Shown piece by piece: positions 36,064-47,845 of a stretch of 64,000 nt of DNA; position 1 is the first letter of the stretch; each line of letters begins with the position of its first letter. The position numbers were made by a program, and so were the translations under genes. This DNA is from Rhodoplanes serenus (lineage in GTDB: Bacteria; Pseudomonadota; Alphaproteobacteria; Rhizobiales; Xanthobacteraceae): assembly GCA_009720755.1 (NCBI GenBank), contig WNKV01000015.1, positions 95,189 through 159,188 of the forward strand, given 5' to 3'. The notes under the pieces are model-generated. The model worked only from the letters and a program-made list of their open reading frames with translations, had not been told where the DNA came from and searched no databases.

Positions 36064-36138
36064 GCTGCCGTAGCTCAGTGGTAGAGCACTCCCTTGGTAA
36101 GGGAGAGGTCGACAGTTCAATCCTGTCCGGCAGCACCA
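36064..36138 (+). tRNA. tRNA-Thr (anticodon GGU)
   Basis: A full cloverleaf can be drawn: acceptor GCTGCCG (36064-36070) with CGGCAGC (36128-36134), D-arm GCTC/GAGC with short loop, anticodon stem CTCCC/GGGAG with loop TTGGTAA (anticodon GGT), T-arm GACAG/CTGTC with loop TTCAATC, discriminator A and encoded CCA (36136-36138). Its 3' end faces the perchlorate genes, the usual orientation for tRNA-targeted integration. Confidence 0.95.
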
Positions 36139-36456
36139 GCGATTTCTGAAAGCCAGCTACTTGGGTGTACCGCGCGGCTGCTCCTCGCCGGCCAATCGGC
36201 AGCAATCGGCGGAACAAAGCACGAAAATGCGTCCCGGTCCGAGTCCAATCGGTGCCAATTTCACCGTTGGCGTTCGCGGGATGATCTCTTCCGAGTCGAA
36301 CGGACGAGACTGAATGTCATGGCGTATTGGAAGCGGCTACGCCCGTCGGAGTTTCCAAACCGTCTTAATCGATCCCCGTATTTCACAGTATTGACCAGTC
36401 GACGCCTCCGTAGTTGCCTCGCGAGTGCCTCGCACGAGCCGACCGGGAGACGAGTC
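36139..36456. other. AT-richer spacer after tRNA-Thr
   Basis: About 320 bases with lower GC than the flanks. Translation in all frames shows no integrase or other recognisable remnant. The abrupt compositional change right at the tRNA 3' end fits an insertion junction. Confidence 0.5.
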
Positions 36457-37014
36457 ATGATCGCCGGCCTGCCGATTGATACATTCACGTCCCTTCATGT
36501 GATCATCAGCCTGACCGGGGTTCTGTCGGGGATCGCTGCGATGGTCGGAATGGCGGCAGGTCTCCGCGTGGCCGGCCTGACATTCGTCTTCCTGATCACC
36601 ACGCTCCTCACCAGCCTCACCGGGTTCCTGTACCCCGTGAATGCCGTGGGCATTCGGCATGTGGTCGGTGTGGCGTCGGTCGCCTTGCTGACTTTGGCGG
36701 CGATCGCACTCTACGGGGCGAAGCTCAAAGGCGGTTGGCGCCCGGCCTATGTCGTTGCAGCCCTGTGCGCGCTCTGGTTCAACACCGCGGCCGCGGTGGT
36801 GCAGGCGTTCCTCAAGATCCCGCTTCTCTCGGAATGGGCCGGAGAGGACACGCAAGCCTGGATACTGACTCTCGAGGTGGGGCTCGGTGGCGTGTTCGTT
36901 CTCGTCGGCGCGCTCGCCTTGTGCCGACGGCCCGCAGGCTGCCGCCCCTCGGCCGACCAGGATCGACCCACGGCTCCGCTGGACGTCGTGCTTCGCGTCC
37001 CCCATCCGCAATAG
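36457..37014 (+). CDS. Hypothetical membrane protein at the island edge
   Basis: A 185-residue membrane protein with about five hydrophobic segments (residues 10-30, 36-60, 64-88, 97-117, 135-160). Motif-like spots are TSLTGFLYPV and LLSEWAGEDTQAW, but I do not recognise a family. GGGAG eight bases before ATG 36457 supports the start. It is convergent with moaA, six bases away, and its codon use is less GC-biased than genes left of the tRNA. It could be a passenger of the island. Confidence 0.7.
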   Translation: MIAGLPIDTFTSLHVIISLTGVLSGIAAMVGMAAGLRVAGLTFVFLITTLLTSLTGFLYPVNAVGIRHVVGVASVALLTLAAIALYGAKLKGGWRPAYVVAALCALWFNTAAAVVQAFLKIPLLSEWAGEDTQAWILTLEVGLGGVFVLVGALALCRRPAGCRPSADQDRPTAPLDVVLRVPHPQ

Positions 37015-37020
37015 CGATGC

Positions 37021-45524: not shown

Positions 45525-46424
45525 TCACATGGAGCGATCGGCGCCCGAGAGCGCCTTCACCACCGAGTCGACCGACTGGATCGTGCCGAGCACGGTGGGG
45601 TTGCCCCAGCGGACGTGGTACTTGTTCTCCGGAACCTGGGCGAGCGCGATCAGCAAGTTGTTGAACGCCCCGAGATCATTGGTCTCGAAGTAGGTGATGA
45701 AGTCGGTGTCGGACAGGCCGGTCGCGTGATAGAGCTTGCGCTTCACGTTGACCAGATACTGCAACGTCGGCGCGGTGTGGACCTCGATCTCCTTCAGCCG
45801 CTGCTCCGGGGTCAGATTCCACCATTCGGCGTTCTTCTTCACCGGGATCATGATCGCATAGCGGGGCGCCGAGTCCGAGTAAGAAGCGGCGAACAGCCCG
45901 GCGTTGAGCGTCTCGGACTTCTGCTTGGTGATGTAGTTGAGCGCCTTGGTGATGCCGACCAGATTCTCGGTGACATCGGAGTAGGAGCCGAACTTGGTGG
46001 CACGGAAATCGGTCAGGAACGTCTGGGCAGCGGCGAGATCGTAGGCGTGCACGCGCAGAAAATAGTCGCTCTTGGCATCGAAGCCGCGGGTCAGGTAGGC
46101 GTCGACGATCACCTTGTCCTTGTGCTTCTCGATGACGGCGAGAACCTCGGCGGCCGCAGCCTTGCGATCGGCCGCCGGGAGCATCGCGTATTCGGGGCGC
46201 AGCTTGTAGACCGAGAAGTCCCCGAAGACGCCGAGATCCGTGAGGATCTTCGCACGGTCGATCGGAGCCGTCGGCGTCGCCGACATGGAGGCCGGCGGCA
46301 TCGGACCGGACGCCGGCATTCCACCGCCTTGCTGTGCGAGAGCCGTGCCGGCCAGGGCGAGGGACATCGCCGCGACGAACCCGAGTTGCAGCCGGTGCCG
46401 GCGCGGCACCAAAGTCGAAATCAT
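45525..46424 (-). CDS. cld: Chlorite dismutase (periplasmic, long-subunit clade)
   Basis: A 299-residue haem enzyme that converts chlorite to chloride and O2. A signal peptide (residues 1-30, ending TALAQ) and a Met/Pro/Gly-rich linker precede the core of about 245 residues. The proximal haem ligand is His216 in EVHTAPT, the distal catalytic arginine is Arg229 in NVKRKLYH, and Glu266 in VPENKYHVRW is the His-bonding glutamate; the three map with one constant offset onto the residues I recall for the Dechloromonas enzyme. The WWN pair (201-203) is also conserved. GGAGG five bases before the ATG sets the start. It lies 270 bases upstream of pcrA and is divergent from sigF. Confidence 0.96.
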   Translation of the reverse strand: MISTLVPRRHRLQLGFVAAMSLALAGTALAQQGGGMPASGPMPPASMSATPTAPIDRAKILTDLGVFGDFSVYKLRPEYAMLPAADRKAAAAEVLAVIEKHKDKVIVDAYLTRGFDAKSDYFLRVHAYDLAAAQTFLTDFRATKFGSYSDVTENLVGITKALNYITKQKSETLNAGLFAASYSDSAPRYAIMIPVKKNAEWWNLTPEQRLKEIEVHTAPTLQYLVNVKRKLYHATGLSDTDFITYFETNDLGAFNNLLIALAQVPENKYHVRWGNPTVLGTIQSVDSVVKALSGADRSM

Positions 46425-46655
46425 GTCTGCCTCCGCGTTTGGATCGGCGGACAGCGCGGCCGGGGGTCGCCCGCGCCGGTCGAGGACCGGCACGGGCTGG
46501 CGTCGTCCATTCTGTAATACGGCGGAGGTTGGCCGGTGTTACTGGTCGCGCTGGGTCGGGTGTAGTACCTAGGACATCTCGGTACGCCGGCTCGGCCAAC
46601 ATTAATTCTGGCCGGACGTAACATCCACGCGGCTGATCCGAAAAGGATTACGAAC
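46425..46655. promoter_or_regulatory. Divergent control region between cld and sigF
   Basis: The 231 bases must hold the promoters of cld and of the sigma-factor gene. The stretch 46505-46650 is notably less GC-rich than its surroundings. No FNR/FixK box is present, and I find no convincing sigma-54 site. A GTAACA at 46618-46623 with CGAA 15 bases on resembles an ECF promoter but lies too close to the sigF start to give a normal leader. Confidence 0.45.
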
Positions 46656-47213
46656 GTGCAGGTGGACCGACGCGAGCACGACTTCGCAGAAGCCATGAGA
46701 GCGGCGTCGCGTGGCGACGTCACCGCTTATACGCGCTTTCTGCAGAACGTCTCCGACTGGTTGAGGCCAATCATCCGGCGCGAGCTTGTTCGATCTGGCC
46801 GGTCGGCAGCCGATGCGGAGGACATCGTGCAGGACACATTACTCGCGCTTCACTTGAAGCGGAACACCTGGGACGAGTCGCGTCCCATCGGGCCTTGGAT
46901 ACGCGCCATCGCGCGGCACAAGCTGATCGACGCGCTGCGGTTGCCGCGCGGGCGCAGCAAAGACGTATCGATCGACGAGTTCAGCGACGCCCTTCCGGCG
47001 GAGGAGATGACGTGTCCGGCCATCGATGATCGTGACATCGAGCGTCGGCTCGACGCCCTGGCGCCAGGGCAGAGGCAGGTCATCCAGGCGATCGCCATCG
47101 ACGGGCTGTCGATCGCCGAGTCGGCGGCGAAGTTCGCGATGACGCCCGTCGCCGTGCGGGTGGCGCTCCACCGTGCCCTCAAGTCGCTGAGCAGGATGGC
47201 GGGCGTGTCATGA
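46656..47213 (+). CDS. sigF: ECF-type RNA polymerase sigma factor (SigF-like)
   Basis: A 185-residue ECF sigma factor. Region 2 spans about residues 14-80 with DAEDIVQDTLLALHLKRNTWD (region 2.2-2.3), and region 4 spans about 125-180 with RRLDALAPGQRQVIQAIAIDGLSIAESAAKF (helix-turn-helix). The start is a GTG at 46656 with AAAAGGA upstream; a later ATG at 46695 would remove 13 residues. Its stop overlaps the anti-sigma gene by four bases (ATGA). SigF-NrsF pairs control hypochlorite defence in perchlorate reducers; here the usual yedY/mrpX targets are not in the window. Confidence 0.9.
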   Translation: MQVDRREHDFAEAMRAASRGDVTAYTRFLQNVSDWLRPIIRRELVRSGRSAADAEDIVQDTLLALHLKRNTWDESRPIGPWIRAIARHKLIDALRLPRGRSKDVSIDEFSDALPAEEMTCPAIDDRDIERRLDALAPGQRQVIQAIAIDGLSIAESAAKFAMTPVAVRVALHRALKSLSRMAGVS

Positions 47214-47845
47214 AGACCGAGAATCTCATTAAGGCGATGGTCGCCGACCGCGAGGCGGACGGGAGTGTCGGTCCTGGGGCGTTGGCCTCGGCGGTCGGCC
47301 TCGGGCTGGTCGGCTCGCTCCTTCTCTATGCGGCCACGCTGGCGCCGCGTGAGCTTTCGACCGCGCTCATGCAGCCGCGGTTCGCCTTCAAGCTCCTCGT
47401 GACACTTCTGCTCGCCGCCGGAGCAGCGGCCGTCGTCGCTCGTCTGGTCCGACCAGACGGACGGTCGGGGCCGGCGTCCCTCGTGGCGCTGGCCGCTCCG
47501 CTTCTGCTCGCGGTCGGGGTGCTCGTCGAGCTCGCGGTTGTCGATGCAGCGGCGTGGCGGACGCGGCTCATCGGCGACAACGCCGTGGCCTGCCTGCTCT
47601 CCATCCCGCTGCTCTCAGCTCCCGTCCTCGCGGCCGTCATCCTGTTCCTGAGAAAGGGCGCGCCGACCCGGCCGGATCTCGCTGGGGTATTTGCCGGGCT
47701 GCTCGGCGGCGGTCTTGGTGCCTTCCTCTATGCCAGCCACTGCCCGGACGACTCCCCGCTCTTCGTCGCGACGTGGTACCCGCTGGCGATCGCCGGCGTC
47801 GTCCTCGGAAGTCGAATTTTGGCGATGAAACTAACCCGGTGGTAG
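47210..47845 (+). CDS. nrsF: NrsF-family (DUF1109) anti-sigma factor
   Basis: A 211-residue membrane protein with six predicted membrane segments, the NrsF/DUF1109 layout. The two family cysteines are present: Cys128 in NAVACLLSIPLLS and Cys178 in YASHCPDDSPLF, proposed sensing residues. It would hold SigF inactive until oxidised. Its ATG overlaps the sigF stop. This is the last gene that clearly belongs with the perchlorate set. Confidence 0.9.
   Translation: MKTENLIKAMVADREADGSVGPGALASAVGLGLVGSLLLYAATLAPRELSTALMQPRFAFKLLVTLLLAAGAAAVVARLVRPDGRSGPASLVALAAPLLLAVGVLVELAVVDAAAWRTRLIGDNAVACLLSIPLLSAPVLAAVILFLRKGAPTRPDLAGVFAGLLGGGLGAFLYASHCPDDSPLFVATWYPLAIAGVVLGSRILAMKLTRW

Follow-up and report, generated by a model that had tools for sequence, protein, structure and literature searches.

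A predicted perchlorate reduction island with a fused electron-entry cytochrome in the chromosome of Rhodoplanes serenus

Comparison with known perchlorate reduction islands

Perchlorate reduction islands (PRIs) were described in Azospira, Dechloromonas, Magnetospirillum, Azospirillum and Sedimenticola (PMC4623255). In the accessible part of that 2015 review, alphaproteobacterial perchlorate reducers belong only to Rhodospirillaceae, and moaA is present in every alpha- and betaproteobacterial island of its set. We analyzed a stretch of 64,000 nucleotides (nt) from Rhodoplanes serenus, hereafter the window, and found at positions 36064–47845 a gene cluster that very probably is a PRI, predicted to permit respiration of perchlorate and chlorate to chloride; the host would probably grow by converting perchlorate to chloride. 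As far as the same part of the review goes, the cluster shares with the described islands pcrABCD, cld, moaA, a NapC-type quinol dehydrogenase and sigF/nrsF, and with the Azospira island the position next to a tRNA gene. It differs from them by one fused gene in place of pcrQ and pcrO, by the absence of pcrPSR and mrpX/yedYZ from the island, by a SigF-type box facing cld, and by a Hyphomicrobiales host with photosynthetic reaction center genes. A PRI variant with an exchanged electron-entry protein looks new, and the control system was probably exchanged as well; if this is true, a PRI can swap both.

The preliminary description of this DNA proposed that the host would widen the range of perchlorate reducers. 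Relative to the accessible text of the 2015 review (PMC4623255) it does, but a genome announcement of 2019 had already stated, in one sentence, that Rhodoplanes strain T2.26MG-98 has perchlorate reduction genes (PMC6473132). The name Rhodoplanes does not occur in the available text of a 2022 survey (PMC9751292), its figure of genera excluded. The literature searched, which excludes most subscription journals, contained no account of Rhodoplanes growing on perchlorate and no paper on Rhodoplanes with chlorite dismutase or on perchlorate-reducing Hyphomicrobiales. Perchlorate respiration would here occur in a culturable genus that has reaction center genes and stands outside the family listed in 2015, and for which the type strain R. 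elegans DSM 11907 exists.

Catalytic subunit and chlorite dismutase

The pcrA gene (42453–45254, minus strand) encodes a molybdopterin catalytic subunit scoring 1219 bits against TIGR03479 (cut-off 985). Among solved structures, the protein matches 4ydd with 1491 bits (residues 43–932), NarG with 431 and ethylbenzene dehydrogenase with 404. The 4ydd file is labeled as a dimethyl sulfoxide (DMSO) reductase family type II enzyme; we take it to be Azospira PcrA, the solved perchlorate reductase. The His/Cys FS0 motif (H66, C70, C74) and Asp204, the latter with the sequence FFDWYGD, are present as named in the preliminary description, and its twin-arginine translocation (Tat) signal corresponds to a Tat-like N-terminus recognized by eye. 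The motif IGQWKP is also present. In a 54-row alignment its Trp position holds Trp in all 25 genome-locus PcrA rows, the window included, and Glu in all nine outgroup rows, while the second Asp of FFDWYGD is conserved in every row. The solved variant 5e7o has Glu at the Trp position. By the Azospira structure, the Trp would be the aromatic gate and the Asp a molybdenum ligand.

In the PcrA tree, the three Rhodoplanes rows form one group (support 100 by the Shimodaira–Hasegawa-like approximate likelihood ratio test, SH-aLRT) nested among PcrA rows; it is joined first by three proteins (100) and next by Azospirillum sp. TSO22-1 (92). The tree holds 29 of 120 listed homologs, leaves out locus L027, whose match was broken up, and includes no characterized ClrA, SerA or NarG, for which the comparison is that of the structure bit scores. 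Both this tree and that of Cld come from 'quick' searches with SH-aLRT support only. Judged from its sequence, pcrA belongs to the PcrA clade. A placement outside the PcrA and ClrA clades, named earlier as the finding that would overturn the perchlorate reduction island, was not obtained, PcrA lying inside the PcrA rows of this tree without a ClrA row; bit scores, residues and tree agree on the island.

The cld gene (45525–46424, minus strand; PF06778) stands beside pcrA, and its product matches best the solved chlorite dismutases (402 bits). With the ATG at 46424 as start, the protein has 299 amino acids (aa) and keeps H216, R229 and E266, so that the residue numbering given before is right. 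A signal peptide, recognized by eye and without a predictor, is consistent with a periplasmic enzyme. The Rhodoplanes Cld rows group with three relatives (SH-aLRT 100) in an unrooted tree with long branches that holds 27 of 120 listed homologs; locus L028 is omitted from it (match values identical to those of L019), and L009, L025 and L077 have no Cld match.

Gene content and layout of the island

The pcrA gene is followed, in this order and on the same strand, by pcrB for the Fe-S subunit (41357–42379; TIGR03478, 494 bits, cut-off 481; 15 Cys), pcrC for a tetraheme cytochrome c (40603–41307; four CXXCH motifs) and pcrD for the reductase chaperone (39927–40583). PcrD scores 134 bits, which is below the NCBIfam subfamily cut-off of 152, although above the Pfam cut-off. 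Next come the fused cytochrome gene treated below and moaA for GTP 3',8-cyclase (37021–38073, minus strand; TIGR02666, 357 bits), with a presumed start at 38073 in an open reading frame (ORF) that extends to 38241. A second moaA is present in the same genome outside the island. The minus-strand run would be transcribed from cld first to moaA last; sigF for an extracytoplasmic function (ECF) sigma factor (46656–47213) and nrsF for anti-sigma-F (47210–47845; PF06532) are divergent on the plus strand. All genes named in the preliminary description (moaA, pcrD, pcrC, pcrB, pcrA, cld, sigF and nrsF beside tRNA-Thr) were recovered by Pfam, NCBIfam and tRNA scans.

To that gene list we add a hydrophobic membrane-protein ORF of 185 aa between tRNA-Thr and moaA (36457–37014, plus strand), which is 82% identical to the copy in the R. 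elegans island and, as scanned within the longer ORF 36094–37014, has no Pfam or NCBIfam match. The G+C content per kilobase is 0.63–0.71 in the island versus 0.69–0.76 in the 13 kb on its left.

A fused cytochrome in place of PcrQ and PcrO

In Azospira, PcrQ and PcrO carry electrons to PcrABC, and NapC and NapO can substitute for them, according to the accessible part of PMC5845722. The island gene at 38099–39898 (minus strand; 599 aa from a presumed start) encodes a heme protein in which a NapC/NirT part (PF03264) is joined to an EB_dh part (PF09459), with five CXXCH motifs and one CX3CH. The 'multiheme quinol dehydrogenase' of the preliminary description is thus there, refined to a two-part protein of NapC-type and EB_dh (PcrO-like) regions. 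It shares with PcrQ/PcrO and NapC/NapO of Azospira suillum PS the NapC-type tetraheme part, the EB_dh part, and the CXXCH and CX3CH motifs, but in Rhodoplanes these form one polypeptide; the accessible text of that paper contains neither 'fusion' nor 'fused' (PMC5845722). This single protein would do the jobs of both PcrQ and PcrO. A predicted model, rough at a mean predicted local distance difference test score of 67, has a long helix at the N-terminus, expected to cross the membrane, together with a helix of 44 residues and a beta domain.

The fused gene is found in all three Rhodoplanes islands. The 24 pcr loci compared with the window include two with the fused form (L007 of R. elegans and L008 of Rhodoplanes sp. 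Cfx2-03), six with separate pcrQ and pcrO (L018, L019, L021, L022, L024, L028), six with pcrQ alone (L010, L011, L017, L020, L029, L030), and ten with neither gene seen within the stretch examined, several of these stretches being incomplete. A search for NapC-EB_dh homologs gave 2119 proteins over the threshold. Among the best 120 of them, 118 are 828–969 aa long, including named members of Sedimenticola, Chromatiaceae and Thiodiazotropha, and the four such proteins that were inspected each have two EB_dh stretches. The EB_dh part of the Rhodoplanes protein is 45–51% identical to the ten highest-ranking fused proteins from outside the genus versus 28–36% to five PcrO ORFs, all of which are outscored by each of the best 120 proteins. 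The NapC part makes a weaker case, with betaproteobacterial PcrQ (L018, L019, L021) ranking 59–62 of 131. An origin of the gene within the island by joining of pcrQ and pcrO was rejected, since the NapC-EB_dh family is widespread and the EB_dh scores favor recruitment; on these sequence comparisons, recruitment from that family is the better reading. Searches of six Rhodoplanes genomes revealed no fused copy outside the islands; in G047, which belongs to another family of the order, one lies on a contig other than that of its pcr-like genes.

The widespread NapC cytochromes of about 940 aa with EB_dh domains carry family-level names in their sources (NapC/NirT, cytochrome C552, ethylbenzene dehydrogenase-related).

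Putative regulation by SigF

The regulatory genes pcrPSR are usual in PRIs but stand outside the definition by pcrA and cld. Neither pcrPSR nor yedYZ was found among the island ORFs, and no histidine kinase or response regulator was found among these or the 18 flank ORFs scanned in R. elegans and Cfx2-03, whose flanks are partly covered. No mrpX-like small methionine-rich ORF passed the filter in the window, R. elegans or Cfx2-03. YedY-type genes (PF00174) have five matches elsewhere in the genome.

The promoter consensus of ECF16 sigma factors is (T/C)GTAAC-N17-CGAA in the accessible part of PMC8315932. The window has one exact match, apart from a spacing of 16 instead of 17, with 0.23 expected in its whole length: GTAAC-N16-CGAA at 46618–46642 (plus strand), a putative promoter facing sigF and 13 nt before its ORF. 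A second box, GTAAC-N16-CGTA (46518–46542, minus strand), faces cld and is a putative promoter as well. R. elegans and Cfx2-03 each have two exact matches (0.15 and 0.13 expected, respectively), facing sigF/nrsF and cld, and in each of the three Rhodoplanes islands the distance from the end of the cld-facing box to the cld ATG is exactly 93 nt. Relaxed matches number two in the entire window, both within the gap between sigF and cld. As one box faces sigF and another faces cld, the cld-facing one at the same distance in all three islands, SigF likely drives the cld-pcr operon. FNR boxes were tried as another candidate and rejected: the window contains 20 loose matches, with 4.98 expected, and none of them is upstream of cld or pcrA.

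The sigma/anti-sigma pair and the (T/C)GTAAC-N-CGAA box are shared with the ECF16 chlorine-stress systems SigF/NrsF of Azospira and BcrS/AbcS of Brucella, whereas the second box in Rhodoplanes faces the cld and reductase operon and not methionine sulfoxide repair genes, as these systems are presented in the accessible part of PMC8315932. It is tentatively suggested, with slightly more doubt than confidence, that SigF was rewired in Rhodoplanes as a master switch: through NrsF it would sense reactive chlorine at the membrane, and it would itself directly turn on cld-pcrABCD and the fused cytochrome, replacing the perchlorate sensor PcrPSR, in cells also capable of phototrophic life. Respiration and detoxification of oxychlorine compounds would then be one regulon, and the island is a candidate case of an oxychlorine-stress sigma factor that may itself run a respiratory operon.

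Position, edges and age of the island

The left edge of the island is tRNA-Thr(GGT) (36064–36138, plus strand). The neighboring genes on its left and the tRNA gene are syntenic in Rhodoplanes genomes G001 and Cfx2-03; in R. elegans they share one small contig with the tRNA inverted, and G003 matches only tRNA-Thr and its upstream region. In all four relatives the match ends at 36140–36146, directly after tRNA-Thr, so the 3' side of the tRNA is a variable junction. Azospira has a variable junction at tRNA-Pro, according to the part of PMC4623255 available. An attachment repeat of tRNA-Thr was rejected, as the window holds a single copy of its final 23 nt; an exact repeat of 12 nt at 62464 is unconvincing, with eight near-matches (up to one mismatch, the tRNA included) versus 0.84 expected from shuffles. 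An empty-site comparison on the right was dropped, since the right flank of the window was found beside the tRNA in none of the four relatives compared; the right edge is therefore defined only by two points, where the R. elegans match ends (47807) and where nrsF stops (47845).

In the 22.8 kb compared with R. elegans, only 36371–37026 (83%) and 38097–47807 (89%) align, and the 9.8 kb of island aligned at 89% DNA identity leave no room for chance. With Cfx2-03, only 38108–45275 (83%), 45498–46441 (84%) and 47210–47799 (72%) align. For the flanks of R. elegans and Cfx2-03, comparison with the window was at the DNA level and comparison with each other by gene families; the flank genes scanned differ between the two. 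The counterpart of the window's left flank sits in both genomes on contigs other than the island contig. Taken together, these differences place the island at three different positions.

Synonymous divergence (dS) was estimated by NG86 for six core genes (pcrA–D, the fused cytochrome gene and cld) and for ten backbone genes as a reference; two further stretches of the same genome were covered by an ORF scan. Versus R. elegans, dS is 0.24–0.34 for the core and 0.29–0.51 for the backbone, by which the core shared with the window appears about as old as the species split or slightly younger. Versus Cfx2-03, it is 0.44–0.77 for the core, 1.06 for nrsF and 0.30–0.54 for the backbone; the Cfx2-03 island, being more diverged than its chromosome, was likely acquired separately. 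The Azospira islands are near-identical (0.01% single-nucleotide polymorphisms) in the accessible part of PMC4623255, whereas those of Rhodoplanes have diverged like the host chromosomes or more.

Host and distribution

The window genome (5.50 Mb, 51 contigs) is 99.7% complete. Its chromosome is supported as belonging to Hyphomicrobiales, genus Rhodoplanes, in line with the flanks of Hyphomicrobiales type recognized earlier; placement by 16S rRNA was tried, and its own assembly holds no small-subunit rRNA match. In the NCBI taxonomy, R. elegans belongs to Hyphomicrobiales, Nitrobacteraceae. Two of five other genomes of the genus have pcrA, R. elegans DSM 11907 (97% identity) and the metagenome-assembled Rhodoplanes sp. 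Cfx2-03 (89%); one of the remaining genomes, G005, has a completeness of only 58%. Among 397 genomes drawn evenly from the order, PcrA matched at E <= 1e-200 in two, the window genome and G047; R. elegans and Cfx2-03 gave no match row, presumably not having been drawn. Two adjacent reaction center matches (364 and 335 bits) make the host a phototroph by gene content, and Rhodoplanes has been described as facultatively phototrophic (PMC6473132).

At the G047 locus (L077, C4:176000–195900), pcrABCD-like genes occur together with a gene of NapC type. The pcrA frame there is interrupted by one stop, at codon 117 of the aligned region, and the 20 kb taken yielded no match to cld.

Proposed pathway and alternative explanations

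In the proposed pathway, quinol would donate electrons to the fused membrane cytochrome, with its NapC and PcrO-like parts, and from there they would reach PcrC and PcrB. In the periplasm, PcrA would convert perchlorate to chlorate and then to chlorite, from which Cld would produce chloride and O2. The likely consumer of this O2 is a cbb3 oxidase encoded outside the island, about 26 kb to its left (1860–9706, plus strand), in a cluster of ccoN (1860–3299), ccoO (3313–4047), ccoP (4222–5091), a gene for a FixG-type protein (5212–6696) and one for a P-type ATPase (7397–9706). SigF/NrsF, known as a chlorine-stress pair, would activate the cld-pcr operon, taking the role of PcrPSR.

Several observations weigh against parts of this interpretation. 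The moaA gene is absent from both the R. elegans and Cfx2-03 islands, in R. elegans precisely between the fused cytochrome gene and the membrane ORF (L007:17157–17190). Cfx2-03 has no sigF, keeping nrsF and both boxes (L008:7798–8760). The cld-facing box of the window has CGTA instead of CGAA at −10; in the other PRI loci scanned such a box was seen only in L016 (Rhodocyclaceae), upstream on the cld strand, and not in L027, which has the same divergent order. Other regulators are possible, given hybrid sensor kinases at 58125–63964, about 10 kb right of the island, and an AraC-type regulator gene beside the fused cytochrome gene of Cfx2-03. No integrase, recombinase or repeat of the tRNA 3' end was found, the flank genes being partly scanned, and dS versus R. 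elegans is higher for sigF (0.51), nrsF (0.64) and the membrane ORF (0.47) than for the core genes.

The best surviving alternative, though an unlikely one, is that the cell uses the island to detoxify or co-metabolize oxychlorine compounds under SigF stress control and not to grow. The SigF-type boxes before cld, the position of cld at the head of the gene run and the absence of pcrPSR from the island would fit this function. The run nevertheless contains parts of a respiratory chain, namely the quinol-linked cytochrome, PcrC, the chaperone and a second moaA, and PcrA retains the residues of its clade. Still less probable is a relic state, with the island decayed or silent. Its contents do vary over the three genomes, with moaA missing in two and sigF in one, but the ORFs of the window are open, and nonsynonymous divergence (dN) from R. 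elegans is far below dS (0.019 vs 0.244 for pcrA). We consider it most improbable that the PcrA-like enzyme is a periplasmic nitrate or chlorate reductase. The common type II DMSO reductase family and the descent of the fused cytochrome from a NapC-type family would fit that reading, but the bit scores, the gate Trp, the tree (without a characterized ClrA row) and the adjacent Cld point to PcrA. As for the Clr composite transposon, in which a Clr reductase and cld are bracketed by insertion sequences, the reductase scores as PcrA, with the tree again lacking a ClrA row and the flank ORFs partly scanned for insertion sequences.

Other features of the window

A terC RNA motif is located at 22523–22576 (Rfam RF03067, 49.9 bits, cut-off 39.9). 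On the right of the island, the chemotaxis-receptor region 48179–49858 has 42–45 DNA matches (query 47846–54000) in each of four Rhodoplanes genomes, by which the genus seems very rich in chemotaxis receptors.

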